DNA of 42,270 bases, taken from assembly GCA_036399815.1 (NCBI GenBank), contig DASWMK010000274.1, positions 1 to 42,270 on the forward strand, given 5' to 3'. Numbering within the stretch: position 1 is the first letter of the stretch; each line of letters begins with the position of its first letter. The stretch is from Acidimicrobiales bacterium. GTDB taxonomy: Bacteria; Actinomycetota; Acidimicrobiia; Acidimicrobiales; DASWMK01. This document shows, piece after piece, positions 9,893 through 42,145 of the stretch. A model generated the notes under the pieces. It was not told where the DNA came from and did no database searches. It saw only the letters and a program-made list of their open reading frames with translations. A program made the position numbers and the translations under genes.

Positions 9893-10666
9893 TCAGGACG
9901 GCGGGTCGACGGCGGCGACGACGTGGAAGCACCTCGCCACCCCCCGGAACGGGTCGCGGGACCCGGCCAGCCACTCCACCTCGTAGGCATCGGCGGCCGC
10001 CTCAGGGTCGGCCGGCATGCCGGCGTGCTCGGTGAACAGCCCCACGCCGTACCACTCCTGCACGTGGGCCCCGAACTTCTCGAGGAGGGCGGTGACCTCG
10101 GCGAGGCTCGGCTCGCTCGTCGGCAGGTACTGGGCGCCCGTCTCCCGGCCGGCCTCGAGCGTCGCCCTGGCCTCCTGCCAGCGGCCCTTGACGGCGCTGC
10201 GCATGGCGGCCGCCTCGGGGTTCAGCGACAGCAGCGACACCAGCCCGCCGGGCCGGACCGTCCCGACCACGCCGGCGACGAACGGGGCCGGCTCCTCCTC
10301 GTACATGAGGACGCTGTGGCAGCAGGCGACGTCGAAGTCGGACCCGACGACCGCGGGCGCGTCGAGCCCGTCGCCGAGGACCAGCTCGACCCGGGCCCGC
10401 ACCTCGGGCGGCTCGCCCTCGAGCCGGCGCCTCGCGAGGTCGAGCATGTTCGGGTCGAAGTCGAGCACGGTGACGGTGTGGCCGTCCCTGGCGAGGGTGA
10501 TGGCCTGCTGCCCGTAGCCGCCGCCGACGTCGACGATGCGCCGGGGCCCGGGCGGCACGTGGCGGGCGATCGCCCTGCGGATCAGCTCGAACGACAGCTG
10601 CCCGCGGTTGCGGGCGTACGCCTCCGCCAGCTGGGCGGCGTGGCGCGACCAGTGGTTGTCCCTCAT
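9893..10666 (-). CDS. SAM-dependent methyltransferase, CmoM/SmtA-like, of the peptide operon
   Basis: The 257-residue class I methyltransferase starts at an ATG preceded by a strong GAGGAGG ribosome site and also overlaps the upstream hydroxylase gene as ATGA. The SAM site is IVDVGGGYGQQAITLA (residues 44-59), followed by VTVLDFDPNMLDLARRRL. The layout, with GQLSFELIRR before the SAM site, a CCHSVLMYEEEP segment and VRPGGLVSLLSLNPEAAAMR, resembles CmoM/SmtA, which in E. coli methylates the carboxylate of a tRNA wobble carboxymethoxyuridine. As the last gene of a peptide-modification operon it more likely methylates the peptide, possibly a carboxylate; that is inference. A housekeeping tRNA role remains possible. 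Confidence 0.85.
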   Translation of the reverse strand: MRDNHWSRHAAQLAEAYARNRGQLSFELIRRAIARHVPPGPRRIVDVGGGYGQQAITLARDGHTVTVLDFDPNMLDLARRRLEGEPPEVRARVELVLGDGLDAPAVVGSDFDVACCHSVLMYEEEPAPFVAGVVGTVRPGGLVSLLSLNPEAAAMRSAVKGRWQEARATLEAGRETGAQYLPTSEPSLAEVTALLEKFGAHVQEWYGVGLFTEHAGMPADPEAAADAYEVEWLAGSRDPFRGVARCFHVVAAVDPPS

Positions 10667-11619
10667 GGTGCGACCTCCTCGGTGTGCTGTTCGAGCCGCG
10701 CGAACCAGGCACGACCCTCGTCGGTCCATGCCGCCTTCTCCCGCAGGACGGCGACCGCCCCCACGAGGTTGGCGAGCGACTCCTCGGCTCGCCGGGCCAC
10801 CTCGGCCGGCGCGCCGCCCTCGTCCCGCCACAGGGCCAGCCCCGTCGCCATCCGGGCGAGGGCGTACGCCGCGTGGACGGTCCCCGACACCGGCCGGGGA
10901 TCGGGGCGCAGCGGGTGGCCGGCGAGGTCGGCCCCGTTGGTGACGAAGGGCTGGAAGCGCCGGCGCAGGACGAGCGCGAGGTGGGCGCTCTCGTGGACGA
11001 GCATCTCGAAGGCGGCCGGGACGCTGTCGTTGTAGCGCTCGCCGACGAAGACGGCGCCGAACACCTCGTCGGCGGTCGCCGACCTGAAGCCGCCGCCCTC
11101 GACGTGGACGACGGCCCTGACCTGGAGGCGGAGCTCCGTCGCCGCCTCCGGCCAGACGCGGTAGAGGACGGCGAGCGCCCGGTCGACGTTGGTCCGCCGC
11201 GACCCGAGCGGCGCGGCGGCCAGCCGCATCGGGGGCTGGGGCCACAGCTGGGTCACCTGGGCGTCCACCGTCGCCACGCCCCAACGGGCCCACGGCTCGT
11301 CCCGGTCGGCGCCGACGTGCTCGGGCGCGGCGGAGGGCGTCCTCGACGCGGCCAGCAGGTCGCTCACCGGCAGCCCGCCGTCCGCCACGAGGTCAGGCTG
11401 CTCGACGGCGACGCGGGCGGCCCAGACGGCGCGGGGGTGCAGCGATCGGACGCCGTACGCCCGTCCGGCGCCCGTGTCGGCCCACCCGAGCCGGGTGGCC
11501 TGGTGGACGAGGCGGACGGCCAGGGCGCCGTGGTAGGCCCGCAGCCAGGCCGCCGTGCGCCCGGGGTCGAGGCCGACGGCGGCCGCCGTGCACGAGGGCG
11601 CCGCCGCGGGGCGGGTCAC
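10663..11619 (-). CDS. HExxH-type putative peptide beta-hydroxylase (stand-alone)
   Basis: The 318-residue protein belongs, by motif, to the HEXXH putative peptide-modification family. Characterised members are iron- and 2-oxoglutarate-dependent peptide beta-hydroxylases acting in RiPP pathways. The metal motif HESAH is at residues 209-213. It is followed by PFVTNG and HPLRPDPRPVSGTVHAAY, where Arg242 could hold 2-oxoglutarate and His249 is a candidate third metal ligand. Before the motif lies DEVFGAVFVGERY. It is plainly homologous, about half identical by eye, to the C-terminal domain of the MFS fusion protein in the same operon. The GTG start overlaps the M41-like gene as GTGA, and the stop overlaps the methyltransferase. 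A peptidase function is the main alternative for an HExxH protein. Confidence 0.85.
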   Translation of the reverse strand: MTRPAAAPSCTAAAVGLDPGRTAAWLRAYHGALAVRLVHQATRLGWADTGAGRAYGVRSLHPRAVWAARVAVEQPDLVADGGLPVSDLLAASRTPSAAPEHVGADRDEPWARWGVATVDAQVTQLWPQPPMRLAAAPLGSRRTNVDRALAVLYRVWPEAATELRLQVRAVVHVEGGGFRSATADEVFGAVFVGERYNDSVPAAFEMLVHESAHLALVLRRRFQPFVTNGADLAGHPLRPDPRPVSGTVHAAYALARMATGLALWRDEGGAPAEVARRAEESLANLVGAVAVLREKAAWTDEGRAWFARLEQHTEEVAP

Positions 11620-12221
11620 GCCGTCGCCTCCGCCGCCGGCGCCCGCTCGACGAGGGCCAGCACGTCGGCCTCCGTCAGCGACCACCCGTCGCCCGTCCCG
11701 GGGTGGAGCCCGGCGGCGACGCCGGCGAGGTCCGTCCCGGTGAGCCCGGCGACGACCGCCTCGATGGCGGCCCGCTCGGCCTCGACCCAGGCGACGGTGC
11801 GGGCCATCGCGGCGGCGAACGGCTCGGGCAGGAGGGCGTGCACCAGGTGCTGGAGGTCGGCCATCACGTCCGGCTCGGGCACGCCGAAGCCGCGGCACCA
11901 CAGGGTCAGGTCGCCGAGCCACGAGCGCGGCATGTGGTGACCGAGCACCACGAACTCGGCCGCGCTGCCGGCCATCACGAAGAGGAAGGCCGCAGCCGGG
12001 TCGGCGCGCACCCAGGCGAGGGGGTCGTCCGCCCCCATGACGACGCCGCCCGCCCGATGGCCGCCGCTGTGGGCCACCCACCCGCCCGGCGGCCGGACCC
12101 GCACCTCGGCGAAGCGGATGCCGTGCCGGGCGGCGGCGACCGCGTGGGCGGCCTCGTGGACGACGACGTGGGGCAGCACGCCGTGCCGGCCGCAGACCTC
12201 GTCGACGTCCACGCCGTTCAC
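11616..12221 (-). CDS. M41 (FtsH protease domain)-like stand-alone zinc peptidase
   Basis: The 201-residue protein has VVVHEAAHAVAAARHGIRFA, with HEAAH at residues 22-26. It then has MAGSAAEFVVLGHH (residues 83-96) and a WLGDLTLW segment with Asp104. This order of HEAxH, a GG/AG-x-AAE helix and a downstream Asp is that of the FtsH/M41 zinc peptidase domain, but no AAA ATPase part is attached. It sits between the two hydroxylase genes with 4-base overlaps on both sides, so it belongs to the pathway. Possible roles are leader-peptide cleavage, product degradation for self-protection, or a structural role. It is distinct from the HExxH hydroxylases: it lacks their DPRP and GTxHAAY motifs. Confidence 0.75.
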   Translation of the reverse strand: MNGVDVDEVCGRHGVLPHVVVHEAAHAVAAARHGIRFAEVRVRPPGGWVAHSGGHRAGGVVMGADDPLAWVRADPAAAFLFVMAGSAAEFVVLGHHMPRSWLGDLTLWCRGFGVPEPDVMADLQHLVHALLPEPFAAAMARTVAWVEAERAAIEAVVAGLTGTDLAGVAAGLHPGTGDGWSLTEADVLALVERAPAAEATA

Positions 12222-14563
12222 GACGGGACCGCGACCGGCAGGGCGCCGGCCCGCTCCTCCAGCCGGGCGAACCAGGCCCGCCCGGCGTCGGTCCAGGCCG
12301 CCTTGTCGCCGAGCACGGCGATCGTGGTGCACAGGTCGGCGCGGCACTGCTCGGCCCGCTCGGCCACCTCGGCGGGGGCGTCGGGGTCGCCGTCGCGCCA
12401 GCGCGCCAGCCCCGTCGCCATCCTGGCGAGGACGTAGGCCGCGTGGAGGGTGCCGGAGATCGGCCGGGGGTCGTCGCGGAGGGGGTGCATGGCCATCTCG
12501 TCGCCGTTGGTCACGAACGGCTCGAAGCGGGCCCGCAGGAACAGGGCGTGGTGGCCGCCCTCGTGGAGGATCATCTCGAAGGCCGCCGGCACCGTGTCGA
12601 GGTAGCGGTCGCCCACGAACACGGCGCCGAACACCTCGTCGAAGCTGGCCGACCCGAACATGGCGCCCTGCACGTGGACGATCGAGCGGACGTAGGAGTG
12701 GAACTCGACGGCCGCCTCGGGCCACACGTCCGCCAGGACGGCGAGCGCCTCGTCGACGTGGCGCCGGCGGTCGCCGAGGGGGAGGGGGGCGAGGCGGAGC
12801 CGGTCGTCGACGTCGATGCGCTGGGCGTACGACGCGAGGTTCTCGACCCCCCAGCCGACCCACCGCTCGGCCGTGCCGGCGCCGACGTGCTCGAGCACCG
12901 GCGCCGGGCCGCGGCCCTCGTCGAGCATGGCCCGCACCGGCACCGCCTGCCCGTCGAGCAGGGCGGGGTCCCTCGCCGCGATCCTGGCGGCCCACACGGC
13001 GCCGGGGTGGAGCCAGCGGACGTCGGCGGGGTCGGCCGAGCCGGGGGCGGCCCAGCCCAGCCGCTCCGCCTCGTGGACGAGGCGCCGGGCGAGGGCCTGG
13101 TAGTAGGCGACGGTCAGCGACGACGACACCCGGGGGTCGATGTCGGCGGCGACGATCTGGTCGTGGAACGTCTCGGGGAGGCGCCGGCGGGGGTCGTCCG
13201 GCTCGCGGCCGGGCGCGGCGTCGGTGGGGCTTCTGGCCGGCTCCGGCTGGCGGGCGGCGTCGGCCGGGCCGCCGGCGTCGGCGTCGGCGTCGGGGGCGGC
13301 CGTCTCGCCGGTGGCCGTCGCCCGGCCGGGGGACCGCAGCCCGAGGAGCAGCGGCGGCGTCACGCAGGCGAGGACGACGGCGGCGACGGTCAGCGCCGTC
13401 CGCTCACCGGCCATGGCGCCGACGGCGCCGCCGACCGCCAGGCCGGCGAGGGCCGCGACCTGCAGGATGTTGTTGGCCAGCGCCATGGTCCTGGCGACGG
13501 TGCCGCGGGCGGCGGCCTCGGCCTGGAGGCTGCCGAACACGGCGGCGATCACGATCGTCCCGCCGAAGGCGCCGGCGAGCTCGAAGTTGACGACGGCGGC
13601 ACCGCCGAGCCAGCCCGGCCCGACGAAGGGCAGGGCGGCGACCGACCACAGGGTGGCGAGGAGGCCGACGGCGCCCGTCCACCGCCCCATCCGCTCGGCC
13701 ACCCGGCCGACGAGGAACCCGCCGACCACGCCGCCCACGGCGCCGACGGCGAGGAGCAGCCCGATGGCCGACTCGCGCATGTCGAGGGCGTGCAGGCAGA
13801 ACAGGACGAAGACCGCCTCGGTGATCCCGTTCACCAGCGCGATCGCCGTCAGGCACCACACCCCGCGCCGGGTGGCCAGCTCGCGCCCGATCGCCACGAC
13901 CTCGCCGACCGAGGCCCGCCCCCTGGTGCGGGGGGCCGGCGGAGGAGCGGCGTCGGCGGGCGGCCGGATCCTGCGGGTCAGGAAGGCGCCGACGAGGAAC
14001 GAGACGGCGTCGGCCACCAGGATGACGGGGGCGGCGAGCACGGCGAGCAGCGCGCCGCCGGCCGCCTGCCCGGCGATGTCGGTGGCGCTCCTCGTGCCGC
14101 TCAGCCGGCCGCCGGCGGCGACGAGCTGGTCGCGTGGGACGAGCTCGACGACCACCGGCCCCGACGTCGCCGCGAGGCAGACGCCGATCACCGCCTTCAT
14201 CGCCACGATGGCGAGCAGGCGCTCGAAGGTGAGCGCGCCGAGCCACCACAGGAGCGGGACGAGGGCCACGAGGGCCCCGAGCACCACCTGCGCGGCGGCC
14301 ATGATCCCGAGGCGGGACCGGATCGAGTCCGACCACATCGCCGCGGGCACCTGGAGGAACAGCCCCGGCAGCATCCCGGCCGCGCCGAGGAGCGCCATCT
14401 GGGCCGGCGACGCGCCGAGCGTGGCGGCGGCGATGATCGGGACGACCACGATCGACACGGCCGACCCGGCGCCGGAGACGGCCAGCGCGGACCAGTACGT
14501 CCGGAAGCCGCGGTTGTTCCAGAGGCTCGGCCGGGTGCCGTCCGGCCCGCCGTGCTCGGCCAC
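12218..14563 (-). CDS. MFS exporter fused to an HExxH peptide hydroxylase domain
   Basis: One uninterrupted 781-residue frame. Residues 1-405 form an MFS transporter with about 12 membrane helices, beginning SLWNNRGFRTYWSALAVSGA and containing SDSIRSRLG in the first cytoplasmic loop. Residues 406-460 are an Ala/Asp/Pro-rich linker. Residues 460-781 are a complete HExxH domain (HEGGH at 667-671, HPLRDDPRPISGTLHAAY with His707), homologous to the stand-alone copy two genes downstream. The linker has no stop and no good start, so I read a true fusion. The GTG at 14563 lies 5 bases after the M29-like gene. The linker and catalytic domain should face the cytoplasm, putting hydroxylation at the export gate. 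The substrate is inferred to be the 51-residue peptide. Confidence 0.85.
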   Translation of the reverse strand: MAEHGGPDGTRPSLWNNRGFRTYWSALAVSGAGSAVSIVVVPIIAAATLGASPAQMALLGAAGMLPGLFLQVPAAMWSDSIRSRLGIMAAAQVVLGALVALVPLLWWLGALTFERLLAIVAMKAVIGVCLAATSGPVVVELVPRDQLVAAGGRLSGTRSATDIAGQAAGGALLAVLAAPVILVADAVSFLVGAFLTRRIRPPADAAPPPAPRTRGRASVGEVVAIGRELATRRGVWCLTAIALVNGITEAVFVLFCLHALDMRESAIGLLLAVGAVGGVVGGFLVGRVAERMGRWTGAVGLLATLWSVAALPFVGPGWLGGAAVVNFELAGAFGGTIVIAAVFGSLQAEAAARGTVARTMALANNILQVAALAGLAVGGAVGAMAGERTALTVAAVVLACVTPPLLLGLRSPGRATATGETAAPDADADAGGPADAARQPEPARSPTDAAPGREPDDPRRRLPETFHDQIVAADIDPRVSSSLTVAYYQALARRLVHEAERLGWAAPGSADPADVRWLHPGAVWAARIAARDPALLDGQAVPVRAMLDEGRGPAPVLEHVGAGTAERWVGWGVENLASYAQRIDVDDRLRLAPLPLGDRRRHVDEALAVLADVWPEAAVEFHSYVRSIVHVQGAMFGSASFDEVFGAVFVGDRYLDTVPAAFEMILHEGGHHALFLRARFEPFVTNGDEMAMHPLRDDPRPISGTLHAAYVLARMATGLARWRDGDPDAPAEVAERAEQCRADLCTTIAVLGDKAAWTDAGRAWFARLEERAGALPVAVPS

Positions 14564-14568
14564 GACCG

Positions 14569-15690
14569 CTACCCGACGAGCGCCCGTGAGGCGCCGGTCG
14601 CGGCGACGCGGAGCTGGCGGTAGCCGAACCCGCAGCAGTCGCCGGTGATGTCCTCGTCGCGGACGTCGGGGTGGGCGGCGCACGTGACGGCCAGGTCGTG
14701 CAGGTCGAGCACGCCGGGCTCGCCGTCGATCTCGATCCTGGCGCCGTCGGCGATCAGGTCGAGGTGGATGTCCTCGAGGTAGGACACGCGGGACGGCGGC
14801 TGGTTGTGCTGCCCGAACCCGACGTGGACGCCGGGGCGGCGCTCGTTCAGGTGCGAGTTCTCGGGGAGGAACCGGCGCACGCCGACGTTCGTCCCGAAGC
14901 CCAGCTCGCCGACGTTGCGGCCGTACGGGCGGGTGAAGCACAGGCCGACCAGCTCGTGGATCCGCGGGTTGGCGCAGGAGAAGTCGACGGCCCGGCCGCC
15001 CTCGACCTCGACGGTCAGCGGCGTGTCGGCCAGCCGCATGTCGAGGCGGCTGATGACGTTGCAGTTCACCGCGCCGTCGGCCACGAGGACGCCCTCGATG
15101 GCCGCCGGGTAGGTGGCGATCTCGCCGGCGGGGAGGATCGTGAAGTGGCCGCCGCGGTGGAGGCCGCGGTTGCTGATCCAGTCGTAGCGGGACGAGTCCA
15201 GCTCGACCTGGAGATCGGTTCCCCCGTCGGACTTTATGCGAATTGTCTTTCGCCCATTGAGCCGACTCAGCAACGTCGCATTGCGCTGCGAGAGCTCGTC
15301 GGGCGTGAGGTTCAGGCCCTCGGTGAAGAACTCCTCCGAGGCACTGATGATGCGGACGATCTGGCAGTCGTCGCCGTACTCCTCGAGCACGCTCGTGAGC
15401 GGGCCGAAGTGCGACATCGACTCCTTCTCCAGGGTGAAGATCACCAGGCGCCCGGCGAGGTCGTCCTTCGCGGGCAGCACGCCCCGCAGCCGCTCCTCGA
15501 ACGCCTCGTCGACGAGGGGCCGCATGGCGACCAGGCTCGGCTCGACGCCCCTGGCCTTCACGCCGGCGGCGAGCCACGCCGCCGCGTCACGGCTGTCGGG
15601 CGAGTACACGACGACGACGGCATCCCGCCGCTCCAGCCCGGCGTAGGCGGACAACAGCCTGTCGACGCCCCGAAAGATCTCTGGTCCCAC
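14569..15690 (-). CDS. M29 aminopeptidase-like protein of the peptide operon
   Basis: The 373-residue protein starts at a GTG with an AAGGAG site six bases upstream. The N-terminal half is an alpha/beta domain (LSAYAGLERRDAVVVVYSPD). The C-terminal half carries the metal-ligand pattern of M29 (aminopeptidase T/PepS): VGELGFGTNVG with Glu262, GVHVGFGQHNQ with His289, and IHLDLIADG with His309 and Asp311. Spacings are close to but shorter than in classical M29 enzymes, and I could not place the first Glu ligand with confidence. It may trim the leader or the N-terminus of the product. Alternatively it may be a catalytically altered relative with another role in peptide tailoring. Confidence 0.75.
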   Translation of the reverse strand: MGPEIFRGVDRLLSAYAGLERRDAVVVVYSPDSRDAAAWLAAGVKARGVEPSLVAMRPLVDEAFEERLRGVLPAKDDLAGRLVIFTLEKESMSHFGPLTSVLEEYGDDCQIVRIISASEEFFTEGLNLTPDELSQRNATLLSRLNGRKTIRIKSDGGTDLQVELDSSRYDWISNRGLHRGGHFTILPAGEIATYPAAIEGVLVADGAVNCNVISRLDMRLADTPLTVEVEGGRAVDFSCANPRIHELVGLCFTRPYGRNVGELGFGTNVGVRRFLPENSHLNERRPGVHVGFGQHNQPPSRVSYLEDIHLDLIADGARIEIDGEPGVLDLHDLAVTCAAHPDVRDEDITGDCCGFGYRQLRVAATGASRALVG

Positions 15691-15779: not shown

Positions 15780-15935
15780 CTACTGCTCGTTCGTCTTGTA
15801 CGCGATGTACCAGGCGACCTCGTTGCTGTCGGTCCGGTCGAAGGCGGACGGCTCCAGCGCGTACTCGGCCTCGAGGGCGGTCATCTCGCCCATGACGCCG
15901 GCGACGAGGTCCTGCATCTGCTGCTCTGAACTCAT
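15780..15935 (-). CDS. Candidate RiPP precursor peptide, 51 residues
   Basis: A short gene with a good ribosome site (GCGAGG, 7 bases before ATG) at the head of the peptide operon. The first half, MSSEQQMQDLVAGVMGEMTA, is helical, acidic and Met/Gln-rich like a leader. The second half is LEPSAFDRTDSNEVAWY followed by IAYKTNEQ: polar, with three Asp/Asn candidates and an aromatic AWYIAY patch, and no Cys, His or Gly-rich core. The lack of Cys rules out thioether or thiazole chemistry and fits side-chain hydroxylation or carboxylate methylation. No double-Gly cleavage site is seen. Precursor identity is inferred from size, position, the hairpin behind it and the enzymes that follow. Confidence 0.7.
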   Translation of the reverse strand: MSSEQQMQDLVAGVMGEMTALEAEYALEPSAFDRTDSNEVAWYIAYKTNEQ

Positions 15936-16354: not shown

Positions 16355-16429
16355 GGTCCCGTGGTGCAGTTTGGAGTGCACGCCGGCCTGTCAAGCCGGA
16401 GGCCGCGGGTTCAAATCCCGTCGGGACCG
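16355..16429 (+). tRNA. tRNA-Asp (GTC anticodon)
   Basis: The acceptor stem GGTCCCG (16355-16361) pairs with CGGGACC (16422-16428). The anticodon arm is CCGGC-CTGTCAA-GCCGG with GTC in the loop, and the T arm is GCGGGTTCAAATCCCGT. G is the discriminator and no CCA is encoded. It is followed after 26 bases by tRNA-Phe, probably on one transcript. Confidence 0.95.
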
Positions 16430-16455
16430 CTGCCGCACGGCGACGTGCGGCCCTG

Positions 16456-16528
16456 GGTCGGGTAGCTCAGTTGGCAGAGCGCGCGCCTGAAAAGCGCGAG
16501 GTCACCGGATCGACGCCGGTCCCGACCA
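16456..16528 (+). tRNA. tRNA-Phe (GAA anticodon)
   Basis: The acceptor stem GGTCGGG (16456-16462) pairs with CCCGACC (16521-16527). The D arm is GCTCAGTTGGCAGAGC, and the anticodon arm is CGCGC-CTGAAAA-GCGCG with GAA in the loop. The T arm stem is ACCGG/CCGGT with an unusual loop, ATCGACG, in which the normal TTC of the T-loop reads ATC. The discriminator is A and the full CCA is not encoded. The T-loop oddity may be worth checking against close relatives. Confidence 0.92.
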
Positions 16529-17147
16529 CCGGTCCCGCCGCCCGGCGGTGGCGGACGTCGCGCAGCGCCGGCGGCGCCGCCCGGGCAACCCTGCCGCTCG
16601 GTCGAGGCGGCGGCCGACCGCCCACCGCCTTTCCGACGGCCGGCGCGTCGATCCGACCCGGCCTGCCCGTCGCCACCGAATGCGCGCCGGTCCGGCGGCC
16701 GACCGCGGCGACCCCCGCGTGGAGCACCCGCACGGCCGCCGGCCCGGCACCGCGGCGCAACGGCGGCGACGCGGTCGTCGAGCGCCCGCAGGCCGACAGC
16801 TCGGCACCGCGGCGCGACGGCGGCGCACCCGCTCGTCGAGGACCCGCGCGGCCGACAGCTCGGCACCGCGGCGCGACGGCGGCGACGCGCTCGTCGAGGA
16901 CCCGCGCGGCCGCCGGCTCGGCGCCGCGGCGCGACGGCGGCGACGCGGTCGTCGAGCGCCCGCACGCCCGTCGGCTCGCCACCGCGGCGCGTCGAACGGC
17001 CGACGGCTCGAGAGGTTCGATCGGGACGTCCCGGAGCGGGCGACAGCCGCCGGCGCGCCGACCGCTCACGCCGTCCCGTTCGTCGCCGGTGGTGGCGGTC
17101 GCCCCTCCCGGAGCAGCGGCCGACGCGCTACCGGCCGGTCGGCGCGG
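16529..17147. other. Gene-free region downstream of tRNA-Phe
   Basis: About 620 bases between tRNA-Phe and bldC. Every open frame here is an Arg/Ala/Pro-rich artefact of GC-rich sequence, with no start site or family I can support. The main content is the tandem repeat at 16705-17000. The rest, including 17000-17147, shows nothing recognisable beyond CG-rich short inverted repeats that may serve as terminators for the converging tRNA and bldC transcripts. Confidence 0.55.
16705..17000. repeat. About 58-bp tandem repeat, roughly five copies
   Basis: Units begin at 16745, 16802, 16861, 16919 and 16977, each with C-G-G/C-C-A/G-CCGCGGCGC. They run through GACGGCGGCGACGCG, then GTCGTCGAG and a CCCGC-GGCCG block, ending in GGCT or AGCT. 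Spacings are 57, 59, 58 and 58 bases. A half unit precedes the array (about 16705-16744), and a fading partial unit ends it near 17000. As 58 is not a multiple of three, the array is not a protein repeat. There are no spacers, so it is not a CRISPR array. Each unit contains CCGCGG and GTCGTCGAG-like self-complementary parts and could fold. Confidence 0.75.
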
Positions 17148-17366
17148 TCAGCGCTGGCCCTGCTCGGGCTCGGTCGACAGCTCCTCCAGGCAGCGGCGGA
17201 TCTCCGAGGCCCGGAACCGGCGGTGGCCACCGAGGGTGCGGATCGCGGTCAGCTTCCCCGCCCGAGCCCAGCGGGTCACCGTCTTGGGGTTCACCCTGAA
17301 CATCGCCGCGACCTCGGAGGGCGTCAGGAGAGCGTCGGGTGCGTCGGAGTCGTTGTTCTGCGCCAT
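17148..17366 (-). CDS. bldC: BldC-type MerR-like DNA-binding regulator
   Basis: The 72-residue protein is almost entirely a winged-helix DNA-binding domain. LLTPSEVAAMFRVNPKTVTR is followed by WARAGKLTAIRTLGGHRRFR, nearly the same as Streptomyces BldC, which holds off sporulation and controls many developmental genes. It has the normal BldC length and no effector domain. The ATG has a GAAGGGA ribosome site five bases upstream. It is divergent from the amino acid dehydrogenase gene, with a palindrome between them. The family is certain; the developmental role in this organism is inference. Confidence 0.93.
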   Translation of the reverse strand: MAQNNDSDAPDALLTPSEVAAMFRVNPKTVTRWARAGKLTAIRTLGGHRRFRASEIRRCLEELSTEPEQGQR

Positions 17367-34750: not shown

Positions 34751-36331
34751 ATGGCAACGGCAACGCCCGAGACGGCGGTCGACGCGGCCCTGCCCGTGGG
34801 CAGCGTCGTGGCCTACGCCGGCCGCGTGCCCGGCGCCCTGGCCGACGAGGGCTGGCTGCTCTGCGACGGCAGCGTGCGGGACCGCGACGAGCTCCCCGAG
34901 CTGTTCACCGCGATCTACTTCAACTTCGGGCAGGTGACCGACCGCCGGTTCAACCTGCCGGACCTGCGGGGCCTGTTCGTCCGCTGCACCTGCCCCGACC
35001 CGGTGGTGCGGGCCCAGCGCGACCCGGACTGGGAGCGGCGGAGCGCGCTGAACCCGGCCGGGAACACGCGCGAGAAGGTCGGCTCGTACGAGGACTACGG
35101 CACGGCCAAGCCGCGCGTGCCGTTCCAGTCGAAGGTCGAGCACCTCGACATCCGCAACTGGCACGACGACGCCGGCTGCGCGTCCCGGCCCGGCAAGCAC
35201 AACGACGACGCACGCGAGGTCGCGGCGTCGGGCGGGGGCGACCTCGAGACCCGGCCGGTGAACAAGTACGTCCACTTCCTGATCAAGGCGGCCTCGACCA
35301 CGCGGGCCGGCGGGCCCGTCGTCCTCCCGGCCGGCGCCGTCCTCCCCTACGCCGGGCCGGCCACCGACCTCCCCCGCTGGCTCCGCTGCGACGGCCGGGC
35401 GCTGTCGAGGGTGGGCCAGTACGCGGCGCTGTTCCAGGCCGTCCAGTACGCCCACGGCAGCGAGGGGGACGACCGCTTCGTGCTCCCCGACTACCGGGGC
35501 TGGTTCCTGCGGGGCGTGAGCGGCGACACCAACCGGCACCCCGACCCCGACCGGGGCTCGCGGACGGCGCCGCACGCCGGCGGCAACACCGGCAACGACG
35601 TCGGGTCGGCCCAGCCGTGGTCGACGGCGCTGCCCCTGAACCCGTTCTACGCCACCTTCCGCCACCTCCCGACGAGCGACGCGTCGAAGCTCGTGGGCGG
35701 CAACCTGTGGAACCTCCTCCAGGTCAACGGCGGGAGCAGGGGCGTCTCGCTGACCAACGGCGGCGGCGGCGACGCCGAGTCCCGCCCGGAGAACCTGAGC
35801 GTGGACTTCTACGTCTGCGCCGAGCCCATGGCCGGGGCCGACGCCACCGCCGACGTCCCGATCGGGGCCGTCGCCACGATCGGCCTCGACCTCCCCGAGA
35901 ACCCGTACTGGCTGCCCTGCGACGGCCGGATGGTGGCGACCGCCGATCACCCGGAGCTGTCGAAGGCGCTCGGCGCCACGTACGGGACCTCGGAGGGGAG
36001 GTTCGGCCTCCCCGACTACCGGGCCCGGTTCCTGCGGGGCTCGAGCGACACGACCGGCATCGACCCCGACGCCGACCGCCGGATCCCGGCCGGGACCGGC
36101 GCGGCGAGCGGCGTCGGCAGCGTCCAGGCCTACGCCACCGGCCGGCCGGGCAAGGAGTTCACGACGTCGGTGCCCAACCTCCCGGCCAGCACGATCGGCG
36201 CCCACGGCGCGACGAACAGCGGGAACGCCGGCGACAACGGCACGTTGACCTTCGACCCGTGGTCCAAGGGCGGCGACGGCGACACCCGGCCGAACAACGT
36301 CTACCTGAACTTCTACATCCGGGCCCGCTGA
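34751..36331 (+). CDS. Protein of three tandem phage-tail-collar domains
   Basis: The 526-residue protein contains three copies of a tail-collar/MdpB-like module, starting near residues 14, 190 and 369. Each has a PxGxVxxYAG-type strand, a W-L-x-C-D-G turn (WLLCDGSVRDRDE, WLRCDGRALSR, WLPCDGRMVAT) and an LPD-x-R-x-x-F-x-R segment (NLPDLRGLFVRC, LPDYRGWFLRG, LPDYRARFLRG). A Gly/Asn/Thr-rich C-terminal part with a final N-x-Y-hydrophobic strand follows in each. Such domains form trimeric tips and collars on phage tails and related secreted particles. Three in one chain suggests a pseudo-trimer. GAGGAG precedes the ATG. There is no signal peptide. Confidence 0.85.
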   Translation: MATATPETAVDAALPVGSVVAYAGRVPGALADEGWLLCDGSVRDRDELPELFTAIYFNFGQVTDRRFNLPDLRGLFVRCTCPDPVVRAQRDPDWERRSALNPAGNTREKVGSYEDYGTAKPRVPFQSKVEHLDIRNWHDDAGCASRPGKHNDDAREVAASGGGDLETRPVNKYVHFLIKAASTTRAGGPVVLPAGAVLPYAGPATDLPRWLRCDGRALSRVGQYAALFQAVQYAHGSEGDDRFVLPDYRGWFLRGVSGDTNRHPDPDRGSRTAPHAGGNTGNDVGSAQPWSTALPLNPFYATFRHLPTSDASKLVGGNLWNLLQVNGGSRGVSLTNGGGGDAESRPENLSVDFYVCAEPMAGADATADVPIGAVATIGLDLPENPYWLPCDGRMVATADHPELSKALGATYGTSEGRFGLPDYRARFLRGSSDTTGIDPDADRRIPAGTGAASGVGSVQAYATGRPGKEFTTSVPNLPASTIGAHGATNSGNAGDNGTLTFDPWSKGGDGDTRPNNVYLNFYIRAR

Positions 36332-36335
36332 GGGG

Positions 36336-37985
36336 TCAGGCCACGTCCCAGGCGAGGCCGACCCCGCCCGCCCCGCCGCTGACGTACACGTCGCCGTCCC
36401 AGAGGGAGCGCTGGGGCACGCGCCCGCCGAGCGGGACGGCCAGCCGCCCGACCAGCGAGCCCATCGGCAGCCGGGTCGACGCGTCCCGCACCTCGCCCCG
36501 CAGCGACGAGCCCTCGGCCTGCCAGGTGACCTCGACGACCGAGCGGGGCGTGTTGACCCCGCTGCCCGACCGCAGCCGGAAGGCGCGCAGCTGGGCCGCG
36601 CCCTGCACGGCGGGGCCGGCGAAGAGCAGGTTGGCCGTCGCCGTCGTGCCGCCGCCGGTGGCCACCATCCGCACGTAGGTCACGCCGGTCGCCCCGATGG
36701 CCACCGGCGTCGTGCCCGTCGGGTCCACGGGGCGGGGCGACGGCGTGCCCCCCTGCCCCCACACGGCGAGCGTGGCCGTGCCGCAGGCGACCTGCCAGGT
36801 CAGGGCGACCTCGCCGGGGCGGGCGGGGTCGGCCGTGAAGCCGAGCTCGACGACGGCGGCCCCGACGGCGACGGTGACCTCCCGCCGCTGCGGCTTCGAC
36901 CCGAGGGCCACGAGCGTGTACGTCGTGCTGACCGCCGGCTCGACGGGCCGGCTCCCGCTCCTGTCGACCGACTGCCCCGCCGGCGGCTCCAGGAGGCAGG
37001 CGCTGGCCCACGTCGTGCGCCACTGGATGGTCGCCGGCCGGCCGGGGTCGACCACCTGGGGGACGGCGGCCAGCTCGTCGACCACCACCGGCATGACCTC
37101 GATCCACCGGGGCTGGGACACCTTGCGGCCGTAGCCGCTGGCCTCCAGCGTGTACCAGCCGGTGTCGTGGATCGGGAAGGCCCGCGAGCCCTCGCCGGGG
37201 TCGACGGCCTGGTGGAACGGCTCGATCGTGACGGCGTCCGCACCCTTCACGAGCCACCGCATCGTCACGTCGGCGTCCTGGGCCACCTGGGTGGGCGACA
37301 CCTGGAAGTCGAGGATGCGGACGGTCGCCACCGTCACCGTGATCTGCTGCTGGATGAACGTGCCGCCGCCCTCGGCGGTGATCACGAAATGGGTGGTCTC
37401 GAGCGGCTTCAGCGGGAGGGTGCCGTTGACGTCGACCGGGCTCGTCACGTCGCCGGTGCGCAGGGTGCAGGACGTGGCGCCGGTGGTCGTCCAGGAAAGG
37501 ACGATCGTGCCGCCAGGGGCGACCTCCACGGGGATGGCCGTGAGGCTGGTGAAGGCCAGGCCGGGGACGCGCTTGTTGACCCCGAGGTCCCGCGTCCGCA
37601 GCTGGTCGGTCAGCTCCGACACGCCGATGACCGCGCCGCCCGGCGTGCCGTTGACGGCGACGTCCTCCAGGACGAAGCCGATGCTGCCGCCCGCCGGGAT
37701 GCCGCTCACCGGGTAGGTGGGGATGGCGAGGAAGGTGCCGTTGCCCTGGTCCCGCACCGACCACGGCGACTCGTCGGTGGCCCGGCACCGCAGGCCGAGG
37801 CGGGCGACGAGGTCGCGCTCGGCCGTCCCGGCGGTGACCGTGAACATCAGCATCGAGCACGGCACGTCGCGCTCGGTCCGGTTGGTGACCGTCACCTGGA
37901 GGATGACCGTCACCTCGGACCCTGGCCGGCTGTAGGGCACCTGGTCGGGGGTGACGTGGTACTCGAACACGGTCGGGTCGGCCAT
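36336..37985 (-). CDS. Multi-domain Ig-like repeat protein
   Basis: The 549-residue beta-rich protein starts at an ATG with an AGAGGAG site. Residues 1-140 form a domain (EVTVILQVTVTNRTERDVPC, then a PWSVRDQGNGTF turn) that is also found at the C-terminus of the 1381-residue neighbour. About five Ig-like repeats of 75-85 residues follow, each with a strand carrying a Trp: IVLSWTTTGA, VTMRWLVKGA, ATIQWRTTWA, VALTWQVACG and VEVTWQAEGS. No signal peptide or sortase motif is seen. This could be a tail-spike, surface or secreted scaffold protein. It converges with the tail-collar gene, their stops only 4 bases apart. Function unknown. Confidence 0.8.
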   Translation of the reverse strand: MADPTVFEYHVTPDQVPYSRPGSEVTVILQVTVTNRTERDVPCSMLMFTVTAGTAERDLVARLGLRCRATDESPWSVRDQGNGTFLAIPTYPVSGIPAGGSIGFVLEDVAVNGTPGGAVIGVSELTDQLRTRDLGVNKRVPGLAFTSLTAIPVEVAPGGTIVLSWTTTGATSCTLRTGDVTSPVDVNGTLPLKPLETTHFVITAEGGGTFIQQQITVTVATVRILDFQVSPTQVAQDADVTMRWLVKGADAVTIEPFHQAVDPGEGSRAFPIHDTGWYTLEASGYGRKVSQPRWIEVMPVVVDELAAVPQVVDPGRPATIQWRTTWASACLLEPPAGQSVDRSGSRPVEPAVSTTYTLVALGSKPQRREVTVAVGAAVVELGFTADPARPGEVALTWQVACGTATLAVWGQGGTPSPRPVDPTGTTPVAIGATGVTYVRMVATGGGTTATANLLFAGPAVQGAAQLRAFRLRSGSGVNTPRSVVEVTWQAEGSSLRGEVRDASTRLPMGSLVGRLAVPLGGRVPQRSLWDGDVYVSGGAGGVGLAWDVA

Positions 37986-37999
37986 CGGGCTCCTCTGCG

Positions 38000-40900
38000 T
38001 CAGGGCTGCCGGGGCTGGAGGGCGGGGACCTTGGCGACGGCGAGGACGCCGGTCCTCGTCGCGTCGGTCGTCTCGGTCACCCGGATCTCGGCCACCCCGG
38101 GCTCGGGCACGACCCGGACGCCGGCGAGGAGCAGCGACACCGTCGCCCCGGCGGGGACGGTGCCGGCCGGCACGGCGGTGACCGTGCCGCGCCCGTCGGA
38201 GGCGACCGTCCACGGGGCGCCGCCGGCGACCGACGCCACGACGAGCGCCGGGTCGGCGGTCAGGGCGGCCGGCGAGGCGCCGACGGGCAGGGCCAGCTGC
38301 ACGGCCGAGCAGGCGACCGGCCCGCCGGAGCCGTTGTACACGGTGACCTGGAGGATCGCCGTGCTCGGGTCGTCGCGGTCCACGGTGCAGGGGACCGAGG
38401 CGGGGACCACGCCGTACGTGAGCACCGTCGGCGGGCCGCCGAGGACCAGCTGGAGCCAGCCCTCCCTGGCGACCGGCGGGGCATCGAGCAGGTGGGCGGT
38501 GGCGTCGGCCGCGCGCACGACGGTCTCGACGGCCGGCGCCTCGGTGCCGTGGTACTCCAGCCAGGACCACGTCCCCTCCCGGAGCCCGGGCAGGGGCATC
38601 ACCGCGCCGGTGGCGTCGCCGAGGACCGGACCGGTCCGGAACGTGACGGCGATGCGGCGGACGGCGGGCGCCACGAAGCCGACCGGCAGCGAGGCCTCGA
38701 CGACGGGGAGCAGGCCGGTGACGGCGTGGACCGAGCCGCGGGGGTCGAGGAGCAGGGTGAGAAGCGCCGTGCGGCCGGGCCGGAAGGGCAGCTCGGGCCG
38801 GGTGTCGCGGACGTAGGGCCGGTCGCCGCCGCCGGCCGCGTGGACCGATTCGATCCCGTCGTAGCGGTCGTCGAGCCAGAACCCGACGAGCCCGTCGTCG
38901 AGCAGCTCGGTGCTGCCGAGCTGGACCCGGAAGCGCACGTCCTCGAACCCGCCGGTGGCGTGGCGGCCCGACTCGGCCCAGGCCTGGCTGGCGGCCGGCG
39001 CCCCGCGGAGCTCGAGGCGCAGCCCGGCCCGCACGACGGCCAGCGGCCGGCCGACCAGCACGGCCAGCTCCTCGTCGGCCGCCGGCCCGCCGGGGTCGAA
39101 GCCCCAGGACACCTCGTCGACGAGCGCGAGGAGGTCGGCGAGGGCGGCGCGCGGGTCGGGGTGGTCGAGGATCCCCCGGACGACGGCCCGCAGGTGGTCG
39201 TTGCCGATGTCGACCGGCGGCCGGCCGCCGTGGGGCGGCGGCGAGGTGGCCGGCGGCGGCAGCCAGAGGGCGCCGTCGACGGCCAGCAGCAGCTCGCCGA
39301 GCGGCTCGCCCGCCGCGTCGTACACGAGGAGGCTGCGGTCCAGGTGGTCGAGCACGAGCCACCCGCACACGGGGTCGGTGCCCGCGTCGACGCCCAGCTC
39401 CATGGCGTCGTCGGCCGCGTCGAGCAGGGGCAGGACGGCCCGGGCCGGCTGGGTCAGGCGGGGCTTGAGCTCGACCAGCCGGGCGCTGCCGGCCGTCACG
39501 AGGTCGGGCGAGCGGACCGGCTGGAAGTTCGACGGCTGCACGCCCATGGCGCCGAGCACGTCGAAGACCTGGCCGAAGTCGTCCACCACCCACAGCCGCT
39601 GGACCGAGAGGTGGCCGGCCCTGACCGGCTGGAACTGGCGGGCGGGGGCGCCGGGCACGGGGATCGAGTCGGGCACGAGCGACGGGGCGCCGGCCGGCCG
39701 GAGGTAGGGGACGAGCGAGCCGTCCCACGGGAGGCGGGCGGTCTGGGGCGTCCGCTGGAGGAGGGCCAGCCCGAGGCCGCTCAGGGCCTGGGCGAGGAGG
39801 TCGGCCCGCTCGACGTACTCGAGCGCGTCCTGGAGGGCCCACAGCTGCTCCTGGGTCGCCGGGTCGGGGGCGTACTGCTCGATCACCTGGGCCAGCCGGG
39901 CGGCCAGCACGTCGGTGGCCTGGGGGGTGAGGAACGTGCGCCCCTCGAGCGGCACCGGGTCGGTCTCGGGCGGCGGCTCGGCCCCGGTCCACCGGTAGGT
40001 GAGGTCGTCGGCGCCCCGGTCGGCGCGGTCGGCGGGCGGCGCCCAGTCCCGCAGGCGGCCGTCGGCCCGCTCGGCGGCGGGGACGTACTGGAGGGCCCAG
40101 TCGAGGTAGAGCGGCGCCCACGGCGGCGACCACACCTGGAGCCCGACCTTCGACGGGAGGGCGCCGAGCCCGTACTGGGTGAGCAGGCCGCCGGCGTCGG
40201 CCAGGGCCTGCGGGTCGAGCGCCGGCGACAGGGCCGGCGTCCACACGACGGCCTGCTCGCGCCGGATGGCGCCGAGCAGCGGCCACGGGTCGGCCGGGTC
40301 GGCGGCGACGGCGATGGCGGGGGCGTTCGTCGTGTCGAGGAAGAACGCCTCCACGAACAGGTCGGCGAGCTCGGCCGGCGGCGACACCGGGGCGACCGGC
40401 GGCACCGGCACCTCGGCGCCGGTCACCCGGTACGACCGGTCGCCCTGCACGACCTCGATGCCGGCGACGGCCTGGCCGGTGAACCGGCAGGGCAGGACCA
40501 TCCCCTCGGCGAACGCGTGGTCCTCGCCGTGCTTGAAGGCCCGGTGGGCGCCGGTCACGAGCAGCACGGGCTCGTTGGGCTGCGAGAACGACGGCGCGGC
40601 GAGCGCCTCGAGCCGCAGGTCGCCGAGGACGGCGGCGAGGGCGACGACGGCGCCGTCGCGCTGGCGCAGCAGCCAGCGGTACTCGCCCACCAGGGCCAGG
40701 GTCGCCGCCTGGGCCGCCGCCCTGGCGTCGGCCACGAGCTGGCGCCAGCTCGGGTCCTGGGGCACGGCGAAGGGCAGGCGCTGCTGCTTCCACCAGAGGG
40801 CGTAGGCCTCCCACTGGGCCGAGGCGAGCTCGTCGGCGCAGCGGTCGAGGGCGCGCTGGAGCACGCCGAGGGTCGTGAGGAGGGCGGCCTGGTCCTCGTC

Positions 40901-42145
40901 GAGCGGCGGCGGCGCCTGCCGGCCCTGCGGGTCGCCCTGGTCCTCGGGGGCGACGACGGTCCACGACGTCCCGCCCGGCGCCGAGGCGAACCAGCCCCGC
41001 TGCGACGCCACGTCCAGCCGGGCCCGGCCGTCGGGCAGGTCGAGCACGGGCAGCAGGCCGGCGGCGAAGGCCTCGATCACCTCGACCAGCTCGGCCGGCG
41101 GGTGGGGGGCGATCTCGTCGGCGAGGTCGACGGCCATCAGCGTGGCCAGGCCGTCCATGGCGCTGTTGCCGATGGCGACCTTCGGCCGCACGTAGCCGGC
41201 GTGGTCGGGGTTGGCGGTCGGGACCCCGGTCAGGTGCGGGCCGTCGACGCCCAGCCAGGTCACGCCGGTGACGACGCCGTGGCACACCGTCCTCGCCGGG
41301 AACCTGGTCCGGGGCACGGCCGGGTCGACGACGACGCCGTGGTCGCGGGCCCAGGCGGCGGCCGCCTCGGCGGCCCGCTCCAGGTCGGCCTCGTCGGTGC
41401 CCGGCCACCAGCGCCGCTCGCCGACCACGGCCCGCCACTCCGCCTCGGTCCGCCACCCGTCGGGGCCGTAGGCGGCGGTGCCGAGGAGCGGGTCGACCGC
41501 CGGTGCCGCGTACCACCCGTGGACGGCGTAGGACACCGGGCCCTGGAGCACGTCCTCCATCTCGTCGCCCAGGGAGAGCACGTTGCGAACGTTCGGGGCG
41601 AACGCCGCGTAGGTCGCGTCGCCGGGGCCGACGGCCGTGAGCGGGGGGACGAGGGCGCGGGCGGCGACGGCCGCCTCGCCCGGCCAGTCCTCCACCCGCC
41701 AGGCCCGGCCGAGCGACGTCGGCCCGGTCCCCCGGGGATCGGGGAACGGGCTGCCCGCCGGGTCCCCGACGTAGTCGCTGGCGAGGATCCACGACCGGAA
41801 CGCCCACCGCCCCGGGTCGGCCGCGTCGGGCGCCTTCCTCGTGACGTACCAGCGGTTGGGCACGTCGGGATAGACGACCCGGCCGTCCCGGCCCTCCGCG
41901 CCGTGGGTCAGGCCGTCGGGCAGCGCCCAGTGGAGGACGACGCCGGTGAACGGCTGGCTGCGGGCGTTCACCGGGAACCGCCGGTAGAACGGCGGGGCGT
42001 CGGTGCTGCCGTACATCGGCAGGAACCCGTACTCGGGCGGCACCCAGGCGAACAGGGCGTTGGCCGACCGCCGGGTGAGCACGAGCGCCTCGACCACCAT
42101 CGGCACGAGCAGCGCGGGCGCCGCCGGCCCGCCGCTAGCGGCCAC
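38000..42145 (-). CDS. Very large unrecognised protein (1381 residues)
   Basis: One unbroken reading frame with normal codon bias. The N-terminal part contains ALFAWVPPEYGFLPMYGSTD and GVVLHWALPDGLTHG. The middle is a long helical region with Trp-rich WEAYALWWKQQRLPF, and later parts are mixed alpha/beta. The last 125 residues (STAILQVTVYNGSGGPVACS, GGAPWTVASDGRGTV) are homologous to the N-terminal domain of the 549-residue protein downstream. No signal peptide, membrane helix or enzyme motif is recognised. The GTG at 42145 overlaps the upstream stop by 11 bases; the ATG for Met16 is an alternative. It is likely a structural protein of a particle or surface apparatus; this is inferred from neighbours. 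Confidence 0.8.
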   Translation of the reverse strand: MAASGGPAAPALLVPMVVEALVLTRRSANALFAWVPPEYGFLPMYGSTDAPPFYRRFPVNARSQPFTGVVLHWALPDGLTHGAEGRDGRVVYPDVPNRWYVTRKAPDAADPGRWAFRSWILASDYVGDPAGSPFPDPRGTGPTSLGRAWRVEDWPGEAAVAARALVPPLTAVGPGDATYAAFAPNVRNVLSLGDEMEDVLQGPVSYAVHGWYAAPAVDPLLGTAAYGPDGWRTEAEWRAVVGERRWWPGTDEADLERAAEAAAAWARDHGVVVDPAVPRTRFPARTVCHGVVTGVTWLGVDGPHLTGVPTANPDHAGYVRPKVAIGNSAMDGLATLMAVDLADEIAPHPPAELVEVIEAFAAGLLPVLDLPDGRARLDVASQRGWFASAPGGTSWTVVAPEDQGDPQGRQAPPPLDEDQAALLTTLGVLQRALDRCADELASAQWEAYALWWKQQRLPFAVPQDPSWRQLVADARAAAQAATLALVGEYRWLLRQRDGAVVALAAVLGDLRLEALAAPSFSQPNEPVLLVTGAHRAFKHGEDHAFAEGMVLPCRFTGQAVAGIEVVQGDRSYRVTGAEVPVPPVAPVSPPAELADLFVEAFFLDTTNAPAIAVAADPADPWPLLGAIRREQAVVWTPALSPALDPQALADAGGLLTQYGLGALPSKVGLQVWSPPWAPLYLDWALQYVPAAERADGRLRDWAPPADRADRGADDLTYRWTGAEPPPETDPVPLEGRTFLTPQATDVLAARLAQVIEQYAPDPATQEQLWALQDALEYVERADLLAQALSGLGLALLQRTPQTARLPWDGSLVPYLRPAGAPSLVPDSIPVPGAPARQFQPVRAGHLSVQRLWVVDDFGQVFDVLGAMGVQPSNFQPVRSPDLVTAGSARLVELKPRLTQPARAVLPLLDAADDAMELGVDAGTDPVCGWLVLDHLDRSLLVYDAAGEPLGELLLAVDGALWLPPPATSPPPHGGRPPVDIGNDHLRAVVRGILDHPDPRAALADLLALVDEVSWGFDPGGPAADEELAVLVGRPLAVVRAGLRLELRGAPAASQAWAESGRHATGGFEDVRFRVQLGSTELLDDGLVGFWLDDRYDGIESVHAAGGGDRPYVRDTRPELPFRPGRTALLTLLLDPRGSVHAVTGLLPVVEASLPVGFVAPAVRRIAVTFRTGPVLGDATGAVMPLPGLREGTWSWLEYHGTEAPAVETVVRAADATAHLLDAPPVAREGWLQLVLGGPPTVLTYGVVPASVPCTVDRDDPSTAILQVTVYNGSGGPVACSAVQLALPVGASPAALTADPALVVASVAGGAPWTVASDGRGTVTAVPAGTVPAGATVSLLLAGVRVVPEPGVAEIRVTETTDATRTGVLAVAKVPALQPRQP

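Follow-up and report, generated by a model that had tools for sequence, protein, structure and literature searches.

An MFS exporter and an alpha-KG-HExxH hydroxylase domain encoded as one polypeptide in a predicted RiPP operon of an Acidimicrobiales genome

ABC exporters fused to C39 peptidases are a known tie of peptide maturation to export. A stretch of 42,270 nucleotides from an Acidimicrobiales genome (hereafter the window, meaning the whole sequence analysed) contains an open reading frame in which an MFS transporter runs without interruption into a HExxH domain, and this raises the questions of whether the two halves truly form one protein and whether modification of a peptide could be coupled in this way to its export. 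The reading that we consider probable is that a complete HExxH hydroxylase is tethered by a flexible linker to the cytosolic C-terminus of an MFS exporter, within a RiPP operon for a 51-aa precursor.

The frame belongs to a set of six genes transcribed in one direction, as delineated by a simple coding-potential caller, with overlaps of 4 nt at the last three junctions. In operon order these are the following:

15780..15935, minus strand: candidate precursor peptide of 51 aa, MSSEQQMQDLVAGVMGEMTALEAEYALEPSAFDRTDSNEVAWYIAYKTNEQ, with GAGG 8 nt before the ATG, a coding signal and similar ORF ends in related loci
14569..15690, minus strand: M29-aminopeptidase-like protein of 373 aa, common to all related loci and 59-61% identical to its counterparts in three inferred-Streptomyces clusters with split genes
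12218..14563, minus strand: MFS-HExxH fusion of 781 aa (MFS_1 plus TIGR04267)
11616..12221, minus strand: M50-like zincin (HEAAH) of 201 aa, with a weak Peptidase_M50 match (E 0.0012) below the cut-off
10663..11619, minus strand: second, free alpha-KG-HExxH enzyme of 318 aa (TIGR04267, 73.2 bits against a cut-off of 40)
9893..10666, minus strand: SAM-dependent methyltransferase of 257 aa (Methyltransf_11, 53 bits)

The methyltransferase also gave weak matches to CmoM and to a daptide methyltransferase, both below the cut-off. The 373-aa protein is called M29-like in name only, because its match to Peptidase M29 (PF02073) is sub-threshold (14.4 bits against 27, E 0.017) and the remaining argument is a resemblance of motifs: the GE, VGE, HxGxG and HxD segments are invariant among its relatives, and we take them to recall the metal ligands of M29. 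Chromosomal genes flank the operon, including a purine cluster and genes for tRNA-Asp and tRNA-Phe; the two tRNA genes (16355-16530) lie just upstream and may mark an integration site, and further in this direction, on the same strand as the operon, a BldC-like MerR-type DNA-binding protein of 72 aa is encoded at 17148-17366. More remotely, at 34751-42100, a phage-tail-collar-like protein (526 aa) and its 1366-aa neighbour possibly belong to a tail-like or surface system.

The preliminary description of this DNA had proposed a single frame with neither a stop nor a believable start between the halves, and the frame at 12218-14563 of the minus strand indeed gives a stop-free translation of 781 aa. 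By itself this is weak evidence for one gene, because the DNA is very G+C-rich and this frame runs on without a stop for another 338 codons upstream, across the M29-like gene, which it reads out of frame. The linker region is more telling. The GC3 values of MFS part, linker and enzyme part are 0.988, 0.978 and 1.000, respectively, and the three-base coding signal favours the fusion frame in every 15-codon step over the linker. The other two frames of this strand have stops at codons 386, 391 and 401 and then at 483, so that no same-strand frame contains a stop within codons 402-482; between codons 409 and 479 there is no in-frame ATG, GTG, TTG or CTG, while the start of standalone HExxH relatives corresponds to about codons 457-459. 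Since the linker lacks both a stop in any same-strand frame and a usable start, one indel cannot hide two ordinary genes, and a two-gene arrangement would need a lost stop together with a lost start, that is at least two errors. An indel concealing a linker stop (about 13180-13345), which had been named in advance as a danger to the fusion, would therefore not be enough to separate two genes, and a single-indel artefact is rejected in view of the absent stops, the missing in-frame enzyme start and the continuous coding signal. More generally, an error of sequencing or assembly joining two genes, to which the draft state of the assembly (287 contigs) and the split homologues lend some colour, appears highly improbable, given that at least two such errors would have to coincide under an unbroken coding signal. 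The MFS-HExxH fusion is real and probably gives one polypeptide.

One gene may still yield two products, an MFS protein and a free HExxH enzyme, either because translation also starts internally, at GTG479 or some non-canonical codon, or because the linker is cut. All relatives use a free enzyme, GTG479 is available and the Ala/Pro linker, being exposed, would be open to cleavage; against this, codons 409-479 are devoid of the four start triplets listed above, and GTG479 has no Shine-Dalgarno sequence and as a start would delete an N-terminal segment conserved in standalone relatives, which makes production of two proteins rather unlikely. The parts of the undivided chain are arranged as follows:

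13334..14563, minus strand: MFS exporter part with 12 helices, residues 1-410, the charge distribution placing both ends in the cytosol
13196..13333, minus strand: flexible Ala/Asp/Pro-rich linker, about residues 411-456, with low pLDDT and coding signal kept
12221..13195, minus strand: complete alpha-KG-HExxH hydroxylase domain, residues 457-781
12551..12565, minus strand: HEGGH motif, residues 667-671
12443..12478, minus strand: R-D-DPRP-x-x-G-x-x-H motif, residues 696-707

The identities initially given to both halves held, each profile being matched above its cut-off. Pfam MFS_1 covers residues 24-356 (72.3 bits against 33.4), and the proposed 12-helix transporter is reproduced in the AlphaFold2 model of the full chain, where 12 membrane helices occupy residues 18-408, mostly with pLDDT above 90. 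The alignment behind this model comprised MFS rows (26 MFS relatives) and the free HExxH copy, and the enzyme part came out poorly because it had only this one relative in the alignment. By fold comparison the MFS part resembles MdfA, NorA and VMAT. No transporter subfamily is assigned, because the match to TIGR00900 (H+ antiporter, 2A0121) reaches 74.6 bits, far below the cut-off of 319.6. Lys and Arg residues number 18 in the predicted cytosolic loops versus 3 in the outside loops, which places the two termini, and with them the enzyme, on the predicted cytosolic side. The MFS half is best viewed as an exporter of drug/H+-antiporter type with a predicted cytosolic tail, and as a member of a drug-efflux-like group it could be a self-resistance pump. 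The linker, unstructured in the model (pLDDT about 35-40), has the Ala/Asp/Pro character first ascribed to it, its length being nearer 46 residues (about 411-456) than the 55 originally counted.

The TIGR04267 profile (mod_HExxH) covers residues 603-764 of the fusion with 75.3 bits against a cut-off of 40, and HEGGH and RDDPRPISGTLH are both intact, so that the family signature HExxH plus R-x-D-x-RP-x-x-G-x-x-H is present and the claim of a complete domain with all its motifs is borne out. Folded alone on an alignment of 27 relatives, from which two plasmid-derived rows were left out, the domain gave a mean pLDDT of 87.9 and a pTM of 0.87, and the only good PDB matches of this model were ChlH (8s5f, E 5.2e-12, TM 0.70) and SjiH (22ob). 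The fused domain is accordingly described as a predicted Fe(II)/alpha-ketoglutarate-dependent peptide hydroxylase. A fusion of the radical SAM-HExxH (ChlB) type was considered and rejected, the N-terminal half being MFS with no radical SAM domain. As for cleavage in place of hydroxylation, the zincin-like motif and the ability of the family member PflC to cut peptide bonds (by oxidation at an ARMD motif, and proteolytically in the absence of a leader) would allow a metalloprotease processing the precursor during export, like the C39 domain of ABC exporters; we judge this unlikely, as the alpha-KG signature DPRP-x-x-G-x-x-H is intact, the fold is that of ChlH and two other peptidase-like genes are already present in the operon. 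A role as peptidase only was likewise rejected. Returning to the predicted hydroxylase, the whole assembly contains exactly two TIGR04267 domains, the fused one and the free one (10663-11619), which are 57% identical to each other and group together in the tree with support 88/96, in line with a duplication in this lineage followed by fusion of one copy.

How the same parts are arranged elsewhere was followed through the HExxH profile and the M29-like protein. Among 343 genomes of one genus (inferred Streptomyces) the profile revealed three full-length close relatives, in loci sharing the order precursor, M29-like protein, MFS, JmjC-type oxygenase and HExxH, with MFS and HExxH as separate genes; the MFS proteins are about 25% identical to the fused MFS over part of the length, and for the HExxH proteins the identity is about 41-44% over the domain. 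The pairing of JmjC-type oxygenase and HExxH recurs in genome G350 (L050 4522-7009), where the former directly precedes the latter near relaxase/helicase-like genes, and in G1041 (L087 9088-11409) two tandem HExxH genes follow the gene of a 47-aa peptide, which represents another type of cluster in which the duplication recurs. A fourth locus, G1106, found via the M29-like protein, has at the end of a contig the precursor, the M29-like gene and a HExxH-like gene without the motif; in this protein (L092 8152-9084) the fold region is kept, HExxH (ELTASAARL) and DPRP are lost, and it is possibly a non-catalytic relative. A fifth, G147, found in the same way and belonging to the same taxonomic order as the window, has precursor and M29-like gene, then some 960 nt in which no gene is evident, and then a standalone MFS, which is the sister of the fused MFS (support 100/100, long branches). 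The size of the gap (L094 7545-8502) fits a lost HExxH gene, with no similarity seen in it. All five loci share the precursor and the M29-like protein, and in every relative seen the MFS and the enzyme are unlinked, because three loci have them split, G147 has the MFS alone and G1106 a HExxH-like protein without motif. Such splitting of all homologues had been put forward as evidence that would tell against the fusion; it was found, three clusters being split and a fourth having the MFS alone, and it makes the fusion lineage-specific, not unreal. These comparisons suggest that two parts which related clusters encode apart were joined in this lineage.

Over 1,995 genome searches (repeats included), and in plasmids, phages and IMG/VR, no further chain uniting MFS and HExxH was detected, and TIGR04267 applied to 397 genomes of the same order matched only the genome of the window and G070, where the other HExxH domain (L003 519-2238), distant in sequence, lies beside a SAM methyltransferase gene. 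Within the loci examined, 64 frames carry a HExxH/DPRP-like pattern, some by chance and some overlapping, and none of them has at least six in-frame membrane segments upstream. Pattern scans of the contigs of 84,980 species, one using the fused chain and one a HExxH alignment, matched nothing; the patterns were too strict, since other genome searches later turned up relatives, and absence cannot be read from these empty results. The M29-like protein had only distant matches among plasmids, two of them annotated as aminopeptidase, and none among phages or E. coli. A literature search covering only a minority of subscription journals returned neither MFS-HExxH fusions nor M29 enzymes in RiPPs. 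The fusion is so far a singleton: its modules are known, their arrangement is new, and the type of RiPP cluster that contains it is apparently undescribed.

The assignment of the short peptide as precursor is based on its recurrence. A short ORF directly upstream of the M29-like gene is present in all related loci, and the similarity is low but patterned, with an acidic leader and, at the C-terminus, an aromatic end beyond which the peptides have little in common: AWYIAYKT terminates the peptide of the window, AMYIAYGT that of G1106 and MAWFVAT or MAWFVST those of the three Streptomyces-type loci, with RRYRITYET of G147 as a looser match. The clearest support for the candidate precursor comes from a prophage region that is P2-like and related to phages of Klebsiella (viral contig IMGVR_UViG_2791355399_000004, L098 6600-9930), where a 59-aa peptide encoded between tail genes ends in PSEDVAWYIAYSTRSNM, the end shared with the window being AWYIAY(K/S)T. 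Behind its gene lies an M29-like gene that is interrupted at a run of T, and of the operon set of the window the prophage carries only this pair, as phage cargo. Thus the pair of precursor and M29-like gene recurs in six other loci with a conserved C-terminal end, as looked for in a RiPP operon. The 51-aa peptide matched no precursor family of NCBIfam, which is expected if the family is undescribed. Since the prophage and all loci keep peptide and M29-like protein, these may be taken as the minimal pair, with exporter, HExxH, JmjC, M50-like protein and methyltransferase as accessories.

From the open frame, domain identities, fold, topology, operon structure and precursor conservation, all of them computed, we infer activity, substrate, order of steps, export and a benefit of tethering in the following form. 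The M29-like protein would act on the precursor by trimming or by a first modification; the tethered HExxH domain and its free paralogue would hydroxylate side chains in the cytosol, probably near the C-terminal AWYIAYKT; the M50-like protein and the methyltransferase would finish the peptide; and the MFS part would export the product, with the linker holding one of the two hydroxylases at the cytosolic mouth of the exporter. Members of the HExxH family hydroxylate peptides in other RiPP operons beside separate MFS genes, namely PflC and PesO, as well as BipH beside the MFS gene BipB (PMC12707348). Coupling of hydroxylation to export is plausible, being fairly drawn from the predicted cytosolic tail and the precursor-like peptide in the operon. 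The split relatives imply that a pathway of this type can do without covalent linkage, and since a free HExxH paralogue is encoded in the same operon, the tethered copy may be superfluous or act on a different substrate. Hydroxylase and exporter (or self-resistance pump) may even work independently, with linkage providing co-expression only; the singleton status of the fusion, the free paralogue and the unlinked state of related clusters are in favour of such neutrality, the intactness of both halves and the joining of one of two duplicated enzymes to the exporter speak weakly against it, and on balance we see it as a possible, less probable state of affairs. With regard to the tethered hydroxylase, one may tentatively go further and imagine an exporter with a built-in hydroxylase at its cytosolic mouth, through which the peptide would leave the cell exclusively or for the most part in hydroxylated form; the RiPP family concerned, undescribed so far, would be characterised by its M29-like enzyme and a precursor end of the AWYIAYxT type. 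As relatives carry the same parts unlinked and the operon itself has a free paralogue, the fusion represents a ready-made test case.

Comparison with known systems delimits what is new here. The radical SAM-HExxH protein ChlB/ChlH (8s5f; TIGR04267, IPR026337) shares the alpha-KG-HExxH domain and its fusion to a pathway module, but there the domain is joined to a radical SAM enzyme rather than to a transporter, and ChlH is soluble. In the biphenomycin operon (BipB MFS, BipG JmjC and BipH HExxH; PMC12707348) a RiPP operon possesses MFS, JmjC and HExxH, as do the split relatives of the window, whereas all its proteins are separate and genes for MNIO, B12-radical SAM and TldD-type peptidase stand instead of the M29-like gene. 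The plasmid cluster NZ_CP109265 of Streptomyces hirsutus (HExxH, ThiF, MFS, TldD and LanB-like) has a full-length HExxH relative (31%) beside an MFS gene and a short peptide gene, but its genes are split, an M29-like gene is missing, enzymes of lantibiotic-dehydratase type are present and the precursor is unrelated. The locus thus leads to an apparently unreported RiPP family with a short peptide and an M29-like enzyme as the only constant parts, distributed over actinobacteria and one Klebsiella-type P2 prophage. To peptidase-containing ABC exporters (PCAT, C39) the fusion had been likened from the beginning, and the likeness stands as far as layout is concerned, a maturation domain being covalently tied to an exporter; beyond the layout it fails, since profile searches of the fusion found no ABC transporter with C39 peptidase and the activity tied to the C-terminus of the MFS is predicted hydroxylation. 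A fusion of MFS exporter and oxygenase would add a second, independent solution for linking maturation with export.
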